A DNA stretch of 64,000 nt from Niveibacterium microcysteis (lineage in GTDB: Bacteria > Pseudomonadota > Gammaproteobacteria > Burkholderiales > Rhodocyclaceae). The notes beneath the pieces are model-generated. The model was given only the letters and a program-made list of their open reading frames with translations, was not told the DNA's origin and ran no database searches. Below, piece by piece: positions 15,097 through 24,275 of this stretch; position 1 is the first letter of the stretch; every line of letters begins with the position of its first letter. The position numbers were made by a program, and so were the translations under genes. The stretch is from NCBI RefSeq assembly GCF_017161445.1, contig NZ_CP071060.1, positions 1,798,001-1,862,000 of the forward strand, read 5' to 3'.

Positions 15097-15708
15097 TTAC
15101 AAGCGCTGTGCGTAGTACTCGACGACCAGCTGCATCTCGATCGGGAAGGGGATGTCGCTCAGCGCCGGCAAGTGCGCCACGGTGGCGGTGTGGGCGACCT
15201 CATCGCAGTTGAGCCATTCGGGCCGGGTGAGCGCGGGCTCCGCGAAGCTTTGCTGCACCACCGGGTGCTTGCGGCTCTTTTCGCGCAGCGCGATCACGTC
15301 GCCGATCCGCAGGCGGTACGAGGGGATGTTCACCGCACGACCGTTGACCAGGCAATGCGAGTGATTCACCAGCTGGCGCGCCGCCGGAATCGTGGGCGCG
15401 AAACCGGCGCGGAACACCGCGTTGTCGAGCCGGCGTTCGAGCAATTCGGCGAGCTTGTCGCCGGCCGAACCTTGCGCACGCTTGGCATCGCTCATCACGC
15501 GGCGCATCTGGCGTTCCGAGAGGCCGTAGTTCAGGCGCAGCTTCTGTTTTTCCTGCAACTGCAGGCCGAAGCCCGATTTCTTGCGCAGGCGGTTGCTATG
15601 CTGGCCGGGCGGGTGCGGGCGATCGGCGATCGATTTGCGCGACAGGCCGGGCAGTTCGACGCCGACGGCACGCATGGCTTTGAGGCGAGGGCCGGTAAAA
15701 CGGGACAT
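15097..15708 (-). CDS. Stand-alone ribosomal protein S4 paralogue
   Basis: A 203-residue S4-family protein: N-terminal S4 domain, then the S4 RNA-binding fold (LLERRLDNAVFRAGFAPT, then ARQLVNHSHCLVNG). It is strongly divergent from the housekeeping sequence I would expect, and the N-terminus lacks the four zinc-binding cysteines of the zinc form of S4. It is not in the alpha operon (no rpsK, rpsM or rpoA nearby). Instead it lies 24 bp after the chaN-like gene as the last gene of the receptor-chelatase operon. Zinc-free ribosomal protein paralogues under metal control are an established theme for L31, L33, L36 and S14; by analogy this may be an alternate S4 used under metal shortage. GGAGT precedes the ATG. 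Confidence 0.85.
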   Translation of the reverse strand: MSRFTGPRLKAMRAVGVELPGLSRKSIADRPHPPGQHSNRLRKKSGFGLQLQEKQKLRLNYGLSERQMRRVMSDAKRAQGSAGDKLAELLERRLDNAVFRAGFAPTIPAARQLVNHSHCLVNGRAVNIPSYRLRIGDVIALREKSRKHPVVQQSFAEPALTRPEWLNCDEVAHTATVAHLPALSDIPFPIEMQLVVEYYAQRL

Positions 15709-15732
15709 GGATACTCCGTAGCAGGGTGAAAG

Positions 15733-16584
15733 TCAGCGGCTCGCGGGCTTGGCGAGTGCGGCGCAGGGGTCGTCGCGCTCGACGGCGGGCAGCGTGAAGT
15801 TGAGGTCGAACTTGGCGGCGTCGGAATCGTCTTCGCCAAGGCTCACGGCGAACACGCCGGGCAGGTCGGCCAGCCAGAGCGGCACGCCGATATCGCGCCG
15901 CACATGGCCGTTGCCGGCCAGCAGCACCGCGCCGCGGCTGGCTTGGGCGCGCAGCTGGGCGGCCATGAACAGATCGCGCGCGACTTGCGCCTGCACCAGG
16001 CCAGGCAGCATGTCCGGCGGTGTCTGGCCGCAGTGGCCGGCGTCGATGGACCGCTGCTGGCCGGCGACGAGTTCATCCTCGAGGACCGGGCGTGCACGCT
16101 GCGGCAGACCGGCTGCGGCAAGGACTTCGGCTGGCAGCGCCGCGCCAAGGCCCTCGCGCATCGCGCGGCCGGCATCGGCACGCGAGACGTTGGCGGCGAT
16201 GATCGGCAAGTCGTGATCAAGCGCCAGCACGAGCAAGGGTTTGAGCATCGGCCAGGGCCAGCGTTTGTCACCAGCCTGTTCGATCAGGTGGTCGACGTCG
16301 CGCGGGTGCTCGCTACGGGCGCGGTCGATGTCGGCCTGGCGCTCGCGGTCGAAGTGCTCCATCACCAGCGCCGGGCGCCAGCCGGCGGCGATGCGCAGCC
16401 GCAGCGCATCGAGCCGGAGCTGGTGCACCTGCGGGTTGTCGTGTACCTCGCCAAGCAGCACCAGCGGGTAGGGCGCAATGGCGTGAGCCAGCGTCGCCGG
16501 ATCGGGCTGGGTGGCGAGTGCCTGCGTGATGGGGCCGCCGGCGAGCACGGCGGCGAGCAATGCGGTGAGCAGGGTGCGTGTCAT
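15733..16584 (-). CDS. ChaN family heme-binding protein
   Basis: A 283-residue ChaN-like protein. Residues 1-24 form a signal peptide; no Cys lipobox is evident at its end. Family motifs are LLGEVHDNPQVHQLRL, MEHFDRERQADID and LAGNGHVRRDIGVP. ChaN of Campylobacter is an iron-regulated protein that binds two cofacial hemes, with a proposed role in heme uptake. The gene starts 2 bp after the stop of the preceding 88-residue protein and ends 24 bp before the S4 paralogue, so it is co-transcribed with the TonB receptor and chelatase. That supports a tetrapyrrole or heme-related substrate for the whole locus. The start at 16584 was chosen for the signal peptide. Confidence 0.88.
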   Translation of the reverse strand: MTRTLLTALLAAVLAGGPITQALATQPDPATLAHAIAPYPLVLLGEVHDNPQVHQLRLDALRLRIAAGWRPALVMEHFDRERQADIDRARSEHPRDVDHLIEQAGDKRWPWPMLKPLLVLALDHDLPIIAANVSRADAGRAMREGLGAALPAEVLAAAGLPQRARPVLEDELVAGQQRSIDAGHCGQTPPDMLPGLVQAQVARDLFMAAQLRAQASRGAVLLAGNGHVRRDIGVPLWLADLPGVFAVSLGEDDSDAAKFDLNFTLPAVERDDPCAALAKPASR

Positions 16585-16586
16585 GC

Positions 16587-16853
16587 TCAATGATAGGTGG
16601 CCGGCAGCGCACAGCCTGCGCAATGTGAGGTCAAGGTGCCGGCCCATTGCGCGCGCAGTTGCTTGCACACCTGGCGCAGTGCAGGATCGAGTGAGGGGTC
16701 GGCCGCCAGATGCTGCAGGTGCTGCACCAGCGCCTGCGTCTTCGCGGCGGTGATGCCGCGCGCCACCGAGGACGAAAGCAGGTGCAGCGCGGCGGCGAGC
16801 GCCAGTTCCGGCCGGCTGCGCTCCACCTCGTTGGTGTCGGACGTCGGCATCAT
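16587..16853 (-). CDS. 88-residue operon protein with C-terminal HCxxC
   Basis: An unknown protein of 88 residues, ATG at 16853 overlapping the DUF2149 stop by 4 bp and ending 2 bp before the ChaN gene. The body is Ala/Leu-rich and probably helical, with no signal peptide. The C-terminus holds SHCAGCALPATYH, a CxxC flanked by His residues that could bind a metal ion. The tight overlaps make it a real gene of the operon. I do not recognise a named family. A metal-relay or adaptor role would fit the neighbours but is inference. Confidence 0.7.
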   Translation of the reverse strand: MMPTSDTNEVERSRPELALAAALHLLSSSVARGITAAKTQALVQHLQHLAADPSLDPALRQVCKQLRAQWAGTLTSHCAGCALPATYH

Positions 16854-17167
16854 GGTTTTTCGCCCTCCGGTACGTAGACCATCGAACCGTCTTTCATCTT
16901 GTAGGCGACGCCGGCCTTCTCGCCGTCGCCGCCGCCGATCTTCCCGCTCGCTTCGTAGCGGGTGAGCTTTTCGCCCTGTTTCATCACGATCTCCATGTCC
17001 GGCTTGCCGGGGTTCTTGATCACGGTGACGTCCTGCAGCGTGAAGGGGTTGAGCGGATGCTGCGCCACCGTGATCAGCAGCGCGGCGATGATCACGAGGA
17101 ACACGTCGATCAGGTTCACGACCGAAAGGATCGGATCGTCGCTGTCGTGGTCGGCGAGAAACTTCAT
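16850..17167 (-). CDS. DUF2149 domain protein
   Basis: A 105-residue protein with a single membrane segment at about residues 17-36 (LIDVFLVIIAALLITVA), preceded by the acidic DDDPILSVVN-like start. A periplasmic-side part follows with NPGKPDMEIVMKQGEKLTRYEASG. This is the DUF2149 pattern. The topology, with a short cytoplasmic acidic start, a helix holding an Asp and a periplasmic domain, matches ExbD/TolR, and DUF2149 is generally found beside MotA/TolQ/ExbB genes as here. It is likely the stator partner of the upstream channel protein. It overlaps the channel gene by 4 bp (ATGA), indicating translational coupling. Confidence 0.88.
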   Translation of the reverse strand: MKFLADHDSDDPILSVVNLIDVFLVIIAALLITVAQHPLNPFTLQDVTVIKNPGKPDMEIVMKQGEKLTRYEASGKIGGGDGEKAGVAYKMKDGSMVYVPEGEKP

Positions 17168-17706
17168 GCCGCCGCCCCGACTGCTGCTGACGTGGGCGCC
17201 AGCACGTGGATCGCCGCATGCGGATGCGCCGCGAGCCATTGCAGTTCTTCGGCCAGCCAGCGTTTGCGCACGTTGACGATCCAGAAGGTGATGCTCGCCG
17301 CGATCAGCGCCAGGATCACTGCAGAGAACGCGATCATCAGGTTCTGGCTCACCGCCGCGAGCTGGCCATCCGAGAGCGACTTGAGCGCCGGCCCCATCGG
17401 AATCATGGTCGCCACCAGGCCCAGCATCGGGCACACGCGGGTGACGATGCGATCGGTTTCCATCAGTTTGTGGGCGGCCAGCTCCTGGTCGTCGCGCAGA
17501 TGCAGGTGGTGCGCGTGCACATGCGCGATCAGCGGATAGCCGGGGCCCGCACCGGGCCGGTTGCGGACGCGCTGCACGGTTTGCATCGCGAAGCTGCCAA
17601 GGGCCCAGAAGGCGTAGAGGAACGCGGCGGCGACGAGGATCAGGACGGGCAGCATGAAGAGCTGCGCGATGTCGTACATCAGGGTTTCGAGGACGGTGGA
17701 CTGCAT
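17164..17706 (-). CDS. MotA/TolQ/ExbB-type proton channel protein
   Basis: A 180-residue inner membrane protein with three hydrophobic segments: one near residues 13-38, and two forming the conserved pair at about 95-150 (PMLGLVATMIPMGPALKSL, then NLMIAFSAVILALIAASITFWIV). This is the MotA/TolQ/ExbB channel core. It probably couples the proton gradient to a periplasmic task with the DUF2149 protein in place of ExbD. It lies 188 bp after the CobN-like gene on the same strand with no terminator visible, so it is likely in the same operon. Whether it energises the TonB receptor of the same locus cannot be read; no tonB gene is present. Confidence 0.88.
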   Translation of the reverse strand: MQSTVLETLMYDIAQLFMLPVLILVAAAFLYAFWALGSFAMQTVQRVRNRPGAGPGYPLIAHVHAHHLHLRDDQELAAHKLMETDRIVTRVCPMLGLVATMIPMGPALKSLSDGQLAAVSQNLMIAFSAVILALIAASITFWIVNVRKRWLAEELQWLAAHPHAAIHVLAPTSAAVGAAA

Positions 17707-17894
17707 GAGGTTAGGTCTCGGTTATAAGGTGAATGAGTGGGATGATGATTCCGCGGCCGGCGCCGTTAGGCTTAGGGTGGGGCGGCTGCGGAAATCGCGC
17801 CCGGCTGCGCCCGGCTGTGCCGGCTGGGGCGCGACCCGGATTGAGGGCGACGACAGCTAAACGCGCGCAGCGGCTCTGAAGGCATTGCCATCAC

Positions 17895-20800
17895 TCAAGC
17901 CACCTTCCTGACCGCGCCCGCATTCCCGCGTGCAGGCAAATCCAGCAGCCGGGCCGCAGGTCGCGCGAACTGGCGGACTGCCCCGCCCAGCAGCGCCCAC
18001 AGCATCAGCGCGCCGCCGATCAACCAGCTCAGCGCCACCGGCGCCGTTTCGACGCGGGGCTTCTTCTGCTCCAGCACCATGCCCTGCACCTTGGGCTTTA
18101 CCGCTTCCATCGGTGGCTGCACGGTCTGCGCAGGGCTTGGCGTGGGCGATGGGGTGGGCGCCGCGGCGGCCGGTGTGGCAGCCTGGCGTGCCACGCCGTA
18201 GCCGGCCGGTGTGGCGCCTTGCGCCTGCTCGGCCACGTAGGCACTGAACTTCGCGTTGTAGCTGCGCAGGTCGTGTTTGCTCGCGAGCTGCTGCCAGCGC
18301 TGCGCGAGTTCGCGCACGGTCTTCTCGTCGGTCTTCCAGTAGCCCTTGCGGGCGGCTTCGAGCATGCGTTCGATGATCTGTGCCTGGGCTTGCGGGGCCT
18401 CGCGTTCGAACCATTCGTTCACGCCCAGCTTGTACTTGTCGCGCACGTACACCTCGGCGAATTCCTGCCACTGGTCGTCGCGCACGATCTCCGGCGCCAC
18501 GGCGGTCCAGCCCCAGAAGTTGTTCACCGCGTCGAGCACGTTGAGCGCGCCGCTGTAGCCTTCGGCCTGCATGGCCTGGATCCAGCCGGGGTGGAACTGG
18601 CGCGTGCGCAGTTCGGTGGAAAGGAAGCCGGCGGCGGTTTCGGTGCGGGCGTCGCGCGGGTCGCGCAGGTTGGAGATCAGCAGCTCGGGCGACTTGCCGG
18701 TTAGGTGGCGCACCGCGAGCCCGAGGCCACCGAGGTACTGGAAGGGGTCGTCGGTGGTGAGCATGCCGTAGAGGTTGCTGGACCGTGCCAGCAGCGCGGC
18801 CTGCACGCCCTTGAGGTTTTCGGCGTAGAGGTTGCCGCCTTCGAGTTTGCTGCCCCATTCGGCTTCGTCCGGGCCGTAGCCGAATTGCATCTTGGCAAGG
18901 TAGAGCTGCGCCATTTTCGCTTCGCCGGCACGCCGGTCGCCGCGCGCTTCACCTGCGTCGTTGCCCCAGGTGTCGGTGGCGAGCGTGGCTTCGTCCAGGC
19001 CGGTGCCGTAGGCGCCCGATTCGCTGGAGAAGATGCGGGTCAGCGCAAGGTTGTAGAGCTTCGCCGCCGGCAAGCCCTTGGCGGCGAGCGCGCCGCGGAT
19101 TGCGCGGGTGCTGGCTGCGACGGCGTTGTCCGGTTCGTCGGCGGCCGCGGCGAGCTTCACCGCCTGGGCGAGCCACTTCATCACGTTGGGGAAGTGGTCG
19201 CGGTAGAGCCCGGTGGCCGAGAGCACCACGTCCACGCGCGGGCGGCCCAGTTCCTTCGCCGGGATCAGTTCGACGCCGACCAGCCGTCCGCCTTCGTCCC
19301 ACTTCGGCCGCACGCCGAGCGCGGCCATCGCTTGTGCTTCGAGGATGCCGGCATGGCGCATCGTCTCGACGCTCCACAGATTGAAGGCGAGCTTGCTCGG
19401 GTAGCTGCCCTTGCGGGCGCGGTGATCCTTGAGCAGGGCTTCGGTGGCGGCGAGCCCGGCTTCCCAGGCCGCCTTGCTCGGAACCTTCGAGGGGTCGAAG
19501 CCGTACAGGTTGCGGCCGGTGGTGAGCGAGTCCGGGTTGCGGATCGGGTCGCCGCCGGTGCTGCTGGCGAGGTGCTTGCCGTCGAGCGCGGCGAGCAGGC
19601 CGGCGAGTTCCGGCGCGGGGTCGAGTGCGGCGAAGTAGCGCTGGGCGCGCTCGGCATCTTCGCGCAGCTTCGCGTCGCGGATCTCGCTGATCGGGCGGCC
19701 TTCGAGCACGTAGGGCTTGAGGAAGATGAAGGGTCTTGATTCGGTGATGCGCGAGAAATCCTGCGCGAACAGCTCCTCGGGCTCCTCGGGGAAGACGCGG
19801 GCGAGGAAGTCCTTGCCCAGCATGGCCATGGTGCTGAACAGGCGCACTTCGTCGCGCTGCGCGCGGCCGAAGGTATGCAGGCCGATCGGCTGCAACTGGC
19901 TGGCGAGTGCGTGCAGGTGGTCGTGCATCTGGTTCAGCCAGGCGGGCAGATTGGCCTGCGCGGCGGCGCGGGAGGTGCCCAGATCAGCGAAGAGATGCAG
20001 CTTCTCCGAGCGGTCGAGGAGTTGCGCGACCAATCGCTCGCGCACGCTGCCGGCTTCCTGCGCCACCACCTGGTGCAGCAGGTCGTGCAAGTCGTTCAGC
20101 TCGGTGTGCAGGCCGGCGGGGCGGAAGGCGGGCGTCTGGTGGCTGACGATGGTGGCGCGGCCGCGGCGCTTGGCCTGGATCGCTTCGCCAACGTCGTCGA
20201 CGATGTAGGGATAGACCACCGGCACATCGCCGAGCACGACGAAGGGCTGGTCGCTGACCGCGAGGCCGCGTTCCTTGCCGGGCGTCCATTCCTGCGTGCC
20301 GTGGGTGCCGTAGTGCACCAGCGCGTTGCGCCCCTCGCGTGCCCACAGGTAGGCGGCGAGGTAGAAGTGGTTCAGCGGTTCCTTGGTGTTGTGGTAGATC
20401 GCCTTTTCCTTCGCTTCGTCGCGTTCGCCACGCGGCGGTACCGGCATCAGCACGACATTGCCGAGCGCCAGACGCGGGATCACGAAACCCGCTTCGCCCT
20501 TGCGGGTGGTGGCCATCGCGCTGGCTTCCGGCTTGCCCCAGCGGGCACTGACTTCGGCGCGCAGTTCGGGCGTTTGCGCATCGAACCAGCGGCGGTAGTC
20601 GCGCATCGGTAGCCATGCGGCGAGGCCGGCGTCGAGCAGGGTTTCGAGCTGGCCGTCGCGGTAGAAGGGGGCGAGCAGGCGGCCGAGTTGCTCGATCAGC
20701 GTCTTCTCGTCCGGCGCATCGGTGCTGTAACCGTGCTGTTTCATCGCGGCGAGCGTGTTGTGCAGGCTCGCCGGCAGGTTCATGAAGCTGGCCGAGAGGT

Positions 20801-21953
20801 TCCGCTCGCCGGGCGGGTAGTTGTAGAACAGGATCGCGACGTGCTTTTCGGCCGCGGGGGTGGTTTGCAGGCGCGCGAGGTTGATCGCCTTGCCGACCAC
20901 GCTGCGCACCTGCGCGGCGATGGGTTCGGTGCGGCCGCTGGGCTTGGCGACGGCGGCGGCGACTATCGGATCGATCGTGCCGGCGATCTCCGGTTGCGCG
21001 AGGTAGAAGGGGACATCCATCAGGCTCACGCCTTCGCGGTCGCGCGCCCATTCTGCTGCGTCGCCCTTGCGGTAGGCCATGGTCTGCAGCACCGGGATGC
21101 CGAGCTTCTCGAACTCCGCCTTGCGCGCCTGCGCGTCGAGCACGATCTGGGTGTTGATCAGCGCCTGCGCAACCGGTTTGCCCGCGGGGGCGAGTAGGCG
21201 GGTGAAGGCGTCCGGCTCCATCATCGGGGTGTAGAAGGGCAGCGCGCGGCCGCCGGCGGCCTCGATGTCGCGGATCAGCGCGTCGATGAAGGCGGTTTCG
21301 CCGCTGCTGACGTAGGCCTGATGCAGCGCGATCGCAATCTGCGGCACATCGCTGCGGCCGGGCAGATCACTCATGCGCGGGCTCACGCCCTGCGGCAGCT
21401 TCGGGTGGTACCAGGCCGCCTTGGGGAAGACGATCGGCGGCGGGATCGTAGCGTCCTCGCGCAGCTTGAGCTGGCGCGCGGCGATCAGGCGCATGGCGGC
21501 ATCGAAGTTGGCGACGCCGCCGTTCTGGTAGTAGCTGTTGAGGCTGCTGGCGAAAGCCGCGTCGGTACCGAAGGCGCGTGCGCCTTCGGTCATCAGCAGC
21601 ACGCGCGGGGTGCTGGCCTCGGCCCAGGCGGGGCCGAGCTTGCTCATGACGAAATCGACGATGTGCGCGCGCGGCGCATCGACGATCACGAACGCCGCGC
21701 CGGCCAGCCAGCCGGCCGCCTCGTCGGGCGAGAGCTGTTCCGCGTAGCGGTGCTCAAGCGCAACGCCAGCCTTGCGGCCGGCCTCGGCGAGCAGCGCGAA
21801 CTTGGCTGCGGGCACCGGGTTGGCGGTGAGGATGCGCACGGTGGGTGTTGCCGCCGTGGCGGGCGCGGTGGTCCACCACAGCAGCAGCGCCAGCATGCAG
21901 ACGCTGACGATCAGGCGCGGCACCGCAAAGCTGCCGCCGAAGAGTGGGCGCAT
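17895..21953 (-). CDS. CobN-like chelatase with signal peptide and membrane anchor
   Basis: A 1352-residue protein of the CobN / magnesium-chelatase large-subunit family. The CobN signature YGTHGTQEWTPGKE lies near residue 548, and the body shows the usual long chain of family blocks (for example LKPYVLEGRP and NPDSLTTGRNLYGFD). In aerobic cobalamin synthesis CobN is cytoplasmic and inserts cobalt with CobS and CobT. This copy differs: a hydrophobic N-terminus (residues 12-34, ending TAPATAA) looks like a signal peptide. After the conserved body comes a Pro/Thr-rich linker at about 1250-1285 and a single membrane helix at about 1303-1322 with a basic tail. It therefore probably faces the periplasm. 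The ATG overlaps the receptor stop by 1 bp. No cobST or other cobalamin gene is nearby. Confidence 0.9.
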   Translation of the reverse strand: MRPLFGGSFAVPRLIVSVCMLALLLWWTTAPATAATPTVRILTANPVPAAKFALLAEAGRKAGVALEHRYAEQLSPDEAAGWLAGAAFVIVDAPRAHIVDFVMSKLGPAWAEASTPRVLLMTEGARAFGTDAAFASSLNSYYQNGGVANFDAAMRLIAARQLKLREDATIPPPIVFPKAAWYHPKLPQGVSPRMSDLPGRSDVPQIAIALHQAYVSSGETAFIDALIRDIEAAGGRALPFYTPMMEPDAFTRLLAPAGKPVAQALINTQIVLDAQARKAEFEKLGIPVLQTMAYRKGDAAEWARDREGVSLMDVPFYLAQPEIAGTIDPIVAAAVAKPSGRTEPIAAQVRSVVGKAINLARLQTTPAAEKHVAILFYNYPPGERNLSASFMNLPASLHNTLAAMKQHGYSTDAPDEKTLIEQLGRLLAPFYRDGQLETLLDAGLAAWLPMRDYRRWFDAQTPELRAEVSARWGKPEASAMATTRKGEAGFVIPRLALGNVVLMPVPPRGERDEAKEKAIYHNTKEPLNHFYLAAYLWAREGRNALVHYGTHGTQEWTPGKERGLAVSDQPFVVLGDVPVVYPYIVDDVGEAIQAKRRGRATIVSHQTPAFRPAGLHTELNDLHDLLHQVVAQEAGSVRERLVAQLLDRSEKLHLFADLGTSRAAAQANLPAWLNQMHDHLHALASQLQPIGLHTFGRAQRDEVRLFSTMAMLGKDFLARVFPEEPEELFAQDFSRITESRPFIFLKPYVLEGRPISEIRDAKLREDAERAQRYFAALDPAPELAGLLAALDGKHLASSTGGDPIRNPDSLTTGRNLYGFDPSKVPSKAAWEAGLAATEALLKDHRARKGSYPSKLAFNLWSVETMRHAGILEAQAMAALGVRPKWDEGGRLVGVELIPAKELGRPRVDVVLSATGLYRDHFPNVMKWLAQAVKLAAAADEPDNAVAASTRAIRGALAAKGLPAAKLYNLALTRIFSSESGAYGTGLDEATLATDTWGNDAGEARGDRRAGEAKMAQLYLAKMQFGYGPDEAEWGSKLEGGNLYAENLKGVQAALLARSSNLYGMLTTDDPFQYLGGLGLAVRHLTGKSPELLISNLRDPRDARTETAAGFLSTELRTRQFHPGWIQAMQAEGYSGALNVLDAVNNFWGWTAVAPEIVRDDQWQEFAEVYVRDKYKLGVNEWFEREAPQAQAQIIERMLEAARKGYWKTDEKTVRELAQRWQQLASKHDLRSYNAKFSAYVAEQAQGATPAGYGVARQAATPAAAAPTPSPTPSPAQTVQPPMEAVKPKVQGMVLEQKKPRVETAPVALSWLIGGALMLWALLGGAVRQFARPAARLLDLPARGNAGAVRKVA

Positions 21954-24211
21954 CAGAAGCTCACCGCAAGGCTGGCCGACACAGCACGACCGGTGGCGGT
22001 GTAGAAGTCGAGGCCGGGGTCGCTGGCCGCCAGGCCGACCTGGCGCACATCGCTCCACAGCCAGTACTTGCGATCGGCGAGGTTGGTGAGCGCCAGGTTT
22101 AGGCGGGTGTTGGCGAGTGGCTTCCACCAGGCGTACACGTCGAAGGTGGTCCAGCCGCCCGGTTTGTAAAGCTCACCGCTGCTTTCATCGACACGGCTCA
22201 CCCCGGCGGCCGCGCGCATCCGCAGGCTGGTGCCCAGCGTGGCCTGCGCGTCGCGCTGCCAGCTCAGGCCGAGCGTGGCGCGCAGCGGTTCAACCGTGTT
22301 GAGCGGCTGATCGGTGGTGTTGTTGGTGCCGTGTGCCCAGGCGGTGGCGCCGTCAAGCTTCCACTGCGGCGCGAACTGCCAGGCGCCGCGCAGCTCGGTG
22401 CCGTAGATCGTGACCTTGTTCTGGTTGCGGTACTGGTAGGTGGTCTTGAGGCCGGCAATGCAGGCCGGGTCAGCCGGGCAGTTGAGGACGACCTGCTCGA
22501 TGAAGTTCTCGTAATGGTTGTGGTAGGCCGCCCAGCTCAGCGCGAGGCTCTGCGTCGTCCAGCGGGTACCGATCTCGATGCCCTGGCTGCTTTCGGCTTC
22601 CAGGTCGGGGTTGGGGCTGGAACCGTAGCCCTGGGCAAGGTTCATGAAGCTGCCATTCACCTCTTCATAGCTCGGGGCGCGGAAACCGGTGACCCACTGC
22701 GCGTAGAGCGTGAGCGGATCGGTCGGGCGCCACACGGCCGAGAGGCGCGGCGAGAAGGCGGAATCTGACTTCGAGACCGCCGGCTTGGCGGTGTGGGTGT
22801 CGTAGAGCGGATCGGCTTCGGGCGAAAGCTCGTAGCGATCCCAGCGCAGGCCGGGGGTGATGATCACGCGATCGTTCGCGAGGCGGATCTCGTCTTGCAG
22901 GAACAGGCCGATCTGCTGCGTGCTGCCGGGCGGGAAGTCCCGCAGCGGGAAGGTCTCGCCCGCCAGGGCGTTCGATACGCTGCCGGTGGTGAGGTTGCTG
23001 CGGGTGGCGGTGCGCAGCTCTTCGCTGTGCGTGTCGAGCCAGTCAAGGCCGCCGATCAGCAGGTGCGTGCTGCTGCCCCAGGCGAACGTGCGCTCGCCCT
23101 GGATCGAAGCCGCCCACTGCTCCTGCGCGAACTCAAAGCCGAGCTGAACGTCGCAGTTGTTCTTGCCCGCGAGCGTGGCGGAGCAGGTGGCGCTGGTGTT
23201 GCTGCGCCGCTGTAGGGTATCGGTAGCGATGTCGCTCTTCTGCCACGAGGCGCTGGTGACGAGGCGGTCGAGCACGCCGCTGGCGGGCGTCCAGGTGTAG
23301 CCAAGGGTGGCGCGCTGGCGCTCGTTGTCTTCGGTGCCATTGGCAGCGGTGACGCGTGGCAGCGAGCTGGAGAGGCGCTTGAGTTCGGTCTCGGACTCGG
23401 ACTTGCGCGTTTCGTGTGCAAGCGTGAAGCGGTGCTCGGCGCTGGGCGTCCAGCCCAGTTTGGCCAACGTTGCCGTGGCGGTGTTGTCTTGCGGGTTCGG
23501 CGCGGTGCGGCTGACCGAAACGGTATCCACATCGCCCTGGTTGCCCAGTTCGTGGCCCTCGCGACGGCTCACCATCAACAAGGCTTCGACGGTTTCGCCC
23601 TTGACGGCGACGCTGCCAGTCGTGCCCCAGCTCTGGTCGGCGCTGGCGGCGTGCAGGACAAGCTCGCCGCCGACCGTCTTGCCCTGGGTGATGAAGTCGC
23701 TCGCGTCCTTGGTGACGAAGCTGACCACGCCGCCGATCGCATCCGAGCCATACAGGCTGGAGGCCGGCCCGCGCACGATCTCGACGCGCTTGAGGAAGTC
23801 CTGTTCCGGCATGTCGCGCGTGGCGGTGGAAATGTTCGAGGGGCCGCCGCGCGAGTAGTAGTCGGGCAGGCGCACGCCATCGACCAGCATCAGCACGCGG
23901 TTGTCCTCGATGCCGCGGATGTTGAAGTTGGTGGCGCCGAAGCGGCGGCGGTCGCGGCTGACGGCGACGTCCGGCTCGTCTGCCACCAGCGCGGTGGCAT
24001 CCACCGGCTGCTGCGTTTCGATGTCGGCGCCGCTGCGCTGGGTGATGGTGAGCGCAGCGTCGTCGGCGTTGCTGTCGCGCCGGGTGGCGCTGACGACCAC
24101 GTCGGCAAGCTGGGTTTCGGCGGCAAAGGCGGGGGCGGCAAAGGCGCAAATCATTGCGAGCGCTAGCGGTTGCAGGCGTTGGATGGGCGAGTGAAGCGAT
24201 GTCGTAGGCAT
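21953..24211 (-). CDS. TonB-dependent receptor, heme/hemoglobin type
   Basis: A 752-residue outer membrane receptor. The signal peptide ends at about AAPAFAA. The N-terminal segment LADVVVSATRR resembles a TonB box. A plug domain follows with NFNIRGIEDNRVLMLVDGVR and VEIVRGPASSLYGSDAIGG, and then a 22-strand barrel ending in the terminal VSASLAVSF (C-terminal Phe). The plug pattern is that of the hemoglobin/transferrin/lactoferrin receptor group. The start at 24211 fits the AAGAAG just upstream and the signal peptide. It is the first gene of the operon, sits directly behind a Fur/Zur-like dyad, and overlaps the CobN-like gene. The ligand could be heme, another metallo-tetrapyrrole or a metallophore; the sequence does not decide. 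Confidence 0.92.
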   Translation of the reverse strand: MPTTSLHSPIQRLQPLALAMICAFAAPAFAAETQLADVVVSATRRDSNADDAALTITQRSGADIETQQPVDATALVADEPDVAVSRDRRRFGATNFNIRGIEDNRVLMLVDGVRLPDYYSRGGPSNISTATRDMPEQDFLKRVEIVRGPASSLYGSDAIGGVVSFVTKDASDFITQGKTVGGELVLHAASADQSWGTTGSVAVKGETVEALLMVSRREGHELGNQGDVDTVSVSRTAPNPQDNTATATLAKLGWTPSAEHRFTLAHETRKSESETELKRLSSSLPRVTAANGTEDNERQRATLGYTWTPASGVLDRLVTSASWQKSDIATDTLQRRSNTSATCSATLAGKNNCDVQLGFEFAQEQWAASIQGERTFAWGSSTHLLIGGLDWLDTHSEELRTATRSNLTTGSVSNALAGETFPLRDFPPGSTQQIGLFLQDEIRLANDRVIITPGLRWDRYELSPEADPLYDTHTAKPAVSKSDSAFSPRLSAVWRPTDPLTLYAQWVTGFRAPSYEEVNGSFMNLAQGYGSSPNPDLEAESSQGIEIGTRWTTQSLALSWAAYHNHYENFIEQVVLNCPADPACIAGLKTTYQYRNQNKVTIYGTELRGAWQFAPQWKLDGATAWAHGTNNTTDQPLNTVEPLRATLGLSWQRDAQATLGTSLRMRAAAGVSRVDESSGELYKPGGWTTFDVYAWWKPLANTRLNLALTNLADRKYWLWSDVRQVGLAASDPGLDFYTATGRAVSASLAVSF

Positions 24212-24256
24212 CTTCTTGTTTCTGTCTGGGTTCGTGGCGACGTGCACCATAATACG

Positions 24257-24275
24257 AATGCGAACGATTCGCAAT
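24257..24275 (-). promoter_or_regulatory. Fur/Zur-like operator of the receptor-chelatase operon
   Basis: On the minus strand ATTGCGAATCGTTCGCATT is a 19-bp dyad (8-3-8) with one mismatch, 46 bp before the receptor ATG. TATTAT lies just downstream as a likely -10. Length, A/T edges and the GAAT..TTC core resemble Fur family boxes (Fur or Zur). Confidence 0.6.

Follow-up and report, generated by a model that had tools for sequence, protein, structure and literature searches.

Why should an operon that encodes a heme-type TonB-dependent receptor and a CobN-like chelatase end in a gene for ribosomal protein S4? The question is raised by a locus of Niveibacterium microcysteis lying within the 64,000-nucleotide stretch of DNA analysed here (the window, to which all positions refer unless another genome or locus is named). 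The S4 gene, which an earlier note made from the sequence alone had listed as an alternate S4 without a role, tells more about the locus than any other of its genes.

Gene content and regulatory site of the operon

All seven genes that the earlier note had assigned to one operon are present and co-directional on the minus strand, running from a palindrome at 24259-24273 down to position 15097:

24259..24273, minus strand: Fur-type 7-1-7 palindrome TGCGAATCGTTCGCA (dyad TGCGAACGATTCGCA) at the operon head, about 47 bp before the receptor ATG
21953..24211, minus strand: TonB-dependent receptor of the heme/hemoglobin subfamily (TIGR01786, 447.7 bits, cut-off 323.75; TIGR01785, 418.4, cut-off 316.85)
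17895..21953, minus strand: CobN-like class I chelatase (PF02514, 966.8 bits)
17164..17706, minus strand: ExbB/MotA-type proton channel (PF01618, 28.4 bits, cut-off 22.9)
16850..17167, minus strand: DUF2149 membrane protein, presumed ExbD-like partner (PF09919, 101.6 bits)
16587..16853, minus strand: small orphan protein of 88 aa without a Pfam family
15733..16584, minus strand: putative heme-binding protein of the ChaN/Tiki superfamily with an N-terminal hydrophobic segment (PF04187, 140.6 bits)
15097..15708, minus strand: ribosomal protein S4 paralogue without cysteine ligands, hereafter C- S4 (PF00163/PF01479)

Adjacent genes overlap or lie at most 24 bp apart, except for a gap of 188 bp between the chelatase and ExbB genes. 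The receptor frame starts at the ATG at 24211, and position 24275, where the earlier note had begun it, falls approximately at an upstream TTG. The assignment of this protein as a heme-type receptor is upheld by scores above both heme/hemoglobin cut-offs; it carries FRAP and NPDL motifs with no His between the two, and its score against the B12 receptor model (107.8) is far under the cut-off of 599.7. The chelatase is 94% identical to that of Niveibacterium sp. 24ML (L003).

The palindrome had been described as Fur/Zur-like, and it is the Fur part of that description that survives. When TGCGAATNNTTCGCA was searched across the 4.85 Mb genome, which encodes two Fur-family proteins, the sole match without mismatches was 24259-24273, read on the minus strand; this box has a matrix score of 24.9. 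Fur-type sites were found near the receptor start in 21 of 26 receptor loci (25 loci and this operon) by a pattern scan, run without a shuffle control, for 7-1-7 sites matching at least 12 of 14 positions within 300 bp of the start of the receptor frame. The same scan detected none in L004, L007, L011, L018 and L019, of which L007 begins at a contig end and L004 carries a box farther upstream. Scanning with GTTATANNATAAC gave no prominent Zur-like sites near the receptor, the best one in this operon matching at 7 of 11 positions. Because Fur-type sites recur across loci and Zur-like sites do not stand out, the dyad is classed by sequence comparison as Fur-type rather than Zur-type.

This classification bears on an analogy with PA1922-PA1925 of Pseudomonas aeruginosa, genes of the same kind that are zinc-responsive according to the available part of one review (PMC8456098). 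Compared through that review and the accessible sections of a second (PMC10393844), both loci contain a TonB receptor, a putative cobaltochelatase or CobN-like gene, an ExbD-type gene and a gene of unknown function, whereas they differ in that Zur/zinc control is reported there and a Fur-type box is found here. The zinc analogy was not carried over, because no prominent Zur-type box is present in this operon and because, as presented in those sections, P. aeruginosa seems to be the only member of its genus in which PA1922 is under Zur control (PMC10393844). In Pseudomonas schmalbachii (L005), the operon core is accompanied by Fur-like sites upstream of the receptor, in contrast to P. aeruginosa, for which control of PA1922 by Zur is reported.

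A CobN-like chelatase with similarity to HmuS

Among PDB entries, the operon chelatase matches HmuS best (9d26, E 1.3e-118), a heme de-chelatase from Bacteroides, and CobN and ChlH less well; the alignment begins at HmuS residue 283 and leaves heme site 1 (Met79/His254) outside. HmuS is described in the available text as an inner-membrane-anchored protein that removes iron from heme, with an essential His538 and with His1209 opposite (PMC12583661), and hmuYRSTUV, as presented in the same text and in the accessible part of a report on P. gingivalis (PMC13227078), is a heme utilisation operon of Bacteroidota. An alignment of 56 rows, with HmuS entered as two segments, contains 31 rows found beside ExbB and DUF2149 genes, this operon's included. 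A tree unites these 31 in one clade, with HmuS as the closest branch (SH-aLRT 95) and with CobN and BchH standing separately, a placement that calls for caution given the long branch of HmuS.

The two active-site motifs of HmuS behave differently in this clade. The HFG(T/A)HG motif containing His538 reads HYGTHG in this operon, and the His is present in 31/31 clade rows. The LSLDHxxEFMGG motif (His1209, Glu1212) is unmatched, the operon protein reading LTTDDPFQYLGG; the position of His1209 is occupied by Asp in 29 of the 31 rows (this operon's included) and by His in two (L076 and L077), and Asp also occurs there in 10/10 CobN rows and in the CobN chains among the PDB matches. Since about 50 residues separate the two aligned blocks in the operon chelatase, as against about 215 in HmuS, the methionine-rich insertion of HmuS domain IV is probably absent, as judged from this spacing rather than from a direct alignment of the insertion. 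The operon protein would therefore resemble HmuS in place, partners and regulation, but by its second active-site motif, with Asp instead of His1209, it is not a HmuS member.

At the level of the locus, the likeness to Hmu systems extends to the TonB receptor, a periplasmic membrane-anchored class I chelatase homologue with the His538 motif, and an ExbB-type partner. There are also differences: no gene of the operon is a HmuY hemophore or HmuT permease by family (six match other Pfam families and the orphan none), the chelatase is shorter and has Asp for His1209, and the operon adds ChaN, the small protein and S4 and apparently also DUF2149.

A simple hydropathy test places hydrophobic segments at residues 4-33 and 1303-1326 of the operon chelatase, corresponding to an N-terminal signal or anchor and a C-terminal segment. 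The view that this CobN-like protein faces the periplasm, against which the earlier note would have counted relatives without a signal peptide, was in general not contradicted by the relatives, since 17 of the 19 clade rows listed keep hydrophobic segments at both ends by this test; L076 is without the C-terminal one and L008 without either. A cytoplasmic CobN of B12 synthesis was rejected on the grounds of the N-terminal signal or anchor and the position outside the CobN clade, despite a score above the cut-off of the NCBIfam equivalog model NF004644, which names the protein 'cobaltochelatase subunit CobN'. This label, repeated in public names, probably represents a wide misannotation of a periplasm-facing protein. 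No other CobN homologue was found in the operon's own genome at E 0.001.

The earlier note had proposed tetrapyrrole uptake combined with a periplasmic step of metal insertion or removal. By analogy with Hmu, uptake and periplasmic handling are retained, and removal is likelier than insertion because a Fur-type box heads the operon. The opposite direction, in which the chelatase would load an imported tetrapyrrole with cobalt or zinc, or would take part in cobinamide or cobalamin salvage, is a doubtful but real possibility: the Asp that 29 of 31 clade rows share with all the CobN rows and CobN PDB chains at the His1209 position, and the NCBIfam model, speak for it, while the receptor scores (above the heme/hemoglobin cut-offs, 107.8 against a B12 cut-off of 599.7), the Fur-type box, and the position of HmuS as nearest relative by both score and tree speak against it. 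De-chelation, suggested by analogy, is accordingly an uncertain assignment, as is the tetrapyrrole from which iron would be removed.

Several related loci depart from the common form. L076 and L077, with His at the place where the 29 other rows have Asp, show that the active site has switched naturally among operons of a single type. A second gammaproteobacterial clade (L083, L085, L088, L089, L091, L093, L098, L099 and L100) has CobN-like frames of 1436-1511 aa beside ExbB, in which GRHS replaces GTHG, and occupies a separate branch of the tree. In Rhodoferax antarcticus (L023, 9980-14655), the chelatase and ExbB are each split over two open frames; the system may therefore be decaying there, or these may be draft errors.

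Two forms of S4

That the operon S4 is an alternate copy was borne out by a second, four-cysteine S4 elsewhere in the genome. This main S4 (G000:C1:741398-741682) lies after S11 and before rpoA and reads CRQC...KC....KC, a CxxC-x13-C-x4-C pattern. In the operon S4 all four cysteines and most of the segment between them are absent, and a short segment next to the second pair is missing. When the N-terminus of the main S4 was compared with PDB S4 chains 1i94, 1fjg and 10px, which we take to be from Thermus thermophilus, the four cysteines were found in register. For the T. thermophilus ribosome, the accessible part of the work of Rozov et al. (2019) states that the data confirm an Fe4S4 cluster on the 'Zn-finger' of uS4 (PMC6555806). 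Such a cluster is documented for Thermus only, and we infer it for betaproteobacterial S4; the four-cysteine betaproteobacterial protein may instead hold zinc.

S4 proteins with and without the cysteines (C+ and C-) were described by Chen, Roberts and Luthey-Schulten (2009), who, in the part of the paper available, reported more than one S4 in 26 of 660 genomes, treated the metal as zinc, and sought Zur sites at S4 paralogues and found none (PMC3087516). The word 'iron' is absent from the main text as available (PMC3087516). The operon S4 is like the C-(IV) paralogues described there, in which the four cysteines and an indel are lost, the C+ form resides in the alpha operon, and some genomes have the C- form only; the difference is that a zinc view and a failed search for Zur sites are found there, and Fur-type boxes here.

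C- S4 genes were then surveyed at three levels. Genes like the operon's occur at an identity of at least 60% in 11 of 300 genomes of the order (this genome included), at 56% or above in 35 of 80 genomes of family f196 (36 loci), and at 54% or above in 43 of 150 genomes of the operon's own family (f1). No Cys precedes PGQ in 86 of 88 C- S4 loci and one does in the other two; some genomes are counted twice in this figure, L001, L002, L003 and L004 being the same genomes as L221, L219, L216 and L235, which are counted once in the box tallies below. The second S4 carries the four-cysteine motif in 48/48 and 16/16 loci of two checks, which correspond to 27/27 both-form genomes of f196 and 31 of 36 of f1, the f1 check omitting G690, G741, G776, G781 and G708. 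The 16/16 was obtained with the looser expression, and a stricter one gave 14/16, the two misses having Ala for a demanded Gly.

The f196 loci with the C- form only number nine, from eight genomes of three genera, six of the genomes belonging to one genus. No S4 was seen between S11 and rpoA in any of the eight genomes (open reading frames being listed for four of them), and S4 is therefore gone from its usual place. Five further genomes in which the C- S4 alone was seen (G655, G674, G725, G737 and G397) were omitted from this set, as their assemblies did not yield an S11. In G685, which lies outside the nine-locus count, S11 is followed by rpoA without an S4 between them; its C- S4, the only form, has no box in the 700 bp upstream.

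Fur-type boxes upstream of C- S4

Boxes at the S4 genes were predicted with a matrix trained on 14 related receptor boxes taken from stretches without S4. In f196, a box precedes the C- S4 by no more than 700 bp in 26 of 27 both-form loci, the distance to the gene being 230-640 bp; in the exception, L275, the closest box lies at -4164 and a receptor intervenes. By contrast, an upstream box occurs in 0/9 C- only loci (7-11 kb), and a box after S4 is present in eight of the nine. The difference has a Fisher p of about 1e-7 by loci and 4e-7 by genomes, relatedness being ignored. Dinucleotide shuffles of the 27 both-form stretches (20 rounds) gave a mean of 0.2 and at most two stretches with a box. 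No box was found upstream of the four-cysteine S4 in 7/7 loci, where the overall rate was 0.009 per kb (1 in 115 kb), and Zur-like sites at the 27 C- S4 loci showed no clear excess, the best match per stretch being similar to that in one shuffled round. Thus, in f196 a Fur-type box precedes the C- S4 in genomes that also have a four-cysteine S4 for it to replace, and is missing from those that do not.

The operon's own family shows a more varied arrangement. Among its 41 tallied loci (this operon and G382 being taken apart), 36 are both-form, of which 19 have a box within 1 kb and eight belong to a CobN operon with a box farther up. The nine without a box comprise four inside a CobN operon, the head of which may lie outside the DNA examined, and five outside any, including L250 with only 2.5 kb upstream. 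The remaining five of the 41 include two with a near box, one with an operon box and two with none, one of these being the C- only G685. The box of G382 lies at -1179, and that of the present operon, at the operon head, at -8558 from S4. In the three C- S4 genomes of other families, boxes were found at -107 (L137), at -105 (L138, for which S11 is missing from the assembly) and, far upstream, at -5537 (L141). A distant two-cysteine S4 paralogue in genome G380 (L143, 7858-8475), with a Fur-type box at -47 and a main S4 that has four cysteines, is perhaps an independent instance of an S4 swap.

These positions bear on whether the C- S4 merely landed in or beside iron loci, with boxes that serve the neighbouring uptake genes and an S4 that is constitutive or silent. 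Such an origin would fit the distance of about 8-9 kb between box and S4 in this and other CobN operons. It is nevertheless unlikely given the close upstream boxes of 26 of 27 both-form f196 loci, given that eight of the 27 carry another box no more than 900 bp past the S4 start, and given that it is this later box that is kept in eight of nine C- only loci, where the upstream one is missing from all nine. The S4 genes of L137 and L138, moreover, have their boxes about 105 bp upstream with no receptor operon before them, and the small orphan gene, as assessed by eye in f196, precedes S4 in nine of 11 both-form loci examined (L275 and L278 being without it) and in 0/8 C- only loci. Least likely of all is a response of the operon and the C- S4 to zinc starvation through Zur, which would parallel PA1922-PA1925 (zinc-responsive in the available part of PMC8456098) and the known C- paralogues and would match the classing of C+ S4 as zinc-binding in the 2009 text as available (PMC3087516), since Zur-like sites stand out neither in front of C- S4 (as judged against one shuffled round) nor near the receptor, the 2009 authors found no Zur sites near S4 paralogues, and Fur-type boxes are present instead.

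The small orphan protein

The orphan protein is one of a divergent family whose members are about 74-103 aa long; 11 of 13 aligned sequences end in His and two in Gln. All of its Pfam matches at E values up to 1 are below cut-off, and an AlphaFold model consists of three helices at low confidence (pLDDT 67.6). The HCxxC sequence to which the earlier note drew attention is present in this operon and in the closest relatives only; not being conserved beyond them, it was rejected as a functional motif. A role as a dedicated partner of S4 proved too narrow and was dropped because, of the 31 among 300 genomes of the order that bear the orphan, 23 show no C- S4. The 23 places away from S4 for which loci were available include 16 with a Fur-type box within 3 kb, five more with a receptor match (one weak) and two with neither; many downstream matches of an iterated orphan profile were spurious and were excluded from the counts. 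In L313-L336, orphan relatives adjoin short reading frames that resemble HemP, Bfd, TonB, ExbB and bacterioferritin, as judged by eye among the frames listed. From its neighbourhoods, the orphan would be best described as an unnamed small protein family of iron loci.

A proposed iron-responsive S4 exchange

We consider it likely that the operon is repressed by Fur and serves iron starvation in two ways, through a supply of heme-type iron and through an iron-sparing exchange of S4. Upon loss of iron, Fur, which is predicted to bind the box at the operon head, would be released and the operon expressed. The TonB receptor would bring heme, or a metallo-tetrapyrrole related to it, into the periplasm. 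There the membrane-anchored CobN-like protein, together with the ExbB/DUF2149 motor pair and ChaN, would handle the ligand and most likely release its iron. The cysteine-free S4 would meanwhile be built into new 30S subunits instead of the housekeeping S4, the N-terminal Cys4 site of which would hold a [4Fe-4S] cluster, so that these subunits could be made without spending iron or cluster-assembly capacity. It also seems reasonably likely that in many Betaproteobacteria iron starvation leads Fur to derepress a cysteine-free S4 that replaces a [4Fe-4S]-bearing one, and that in the Niveibacterium/Uliginosibacterium line this switch has been wired into an operon for the extraction of heme iron.

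For zinc, it is known that ribosomal proteins are exchanged in response to a metal: Zur regulates C- paralogues of zinc-binding ribosomal proteins, among them those of S14, S18, L28, L31 and L33. The S4 case resembles these in having a cysteine-free copy outside the ribosomal operon, a cysteine form inside it and a site of metal-repressor type upstream; it differs in that the site is Fur-type and the protein is S4, whose Thermus homologue holds Fe4S4. No report of iron-controlled S4 or of iron-driven ribosomal protein exchange was found in the literature searched, from which subscription journals were largely absent, and prior reports are possible. The words 'ribosomal' and 'rpsD' do not occur in the available part of PMC3050691, and PMC545781, likewise checked for iron-controlled S4 in its available part, contained no such report.

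With the chelatase half of the locus, Hmu-like heme handling reaches into Proteobacteria in a version whose active site is altered, and the Asp-for-His1209 protein offers a natural variant for probing the mechanism of de-chelation. If the proposed exchange is correct, it would be the iron counterpart of the Zur-controlled zinc swap and would answer the question left by the 2009 study, in which Zur sites were not found, of what controls the cysteine-free S4 paralogues. It would also give physiological meaning to the Fe4S4 cluster of Thermus uS4, making it a real and regulated iron cost in living cells and linking iron status directly to the make-up of the ribosome; in cells short of iron, C- S4 may also alter translation or assembly. 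Iron supply and the ribosome's demand for iron would then change together in the Niveibacterium/Uliginosibacterium line.
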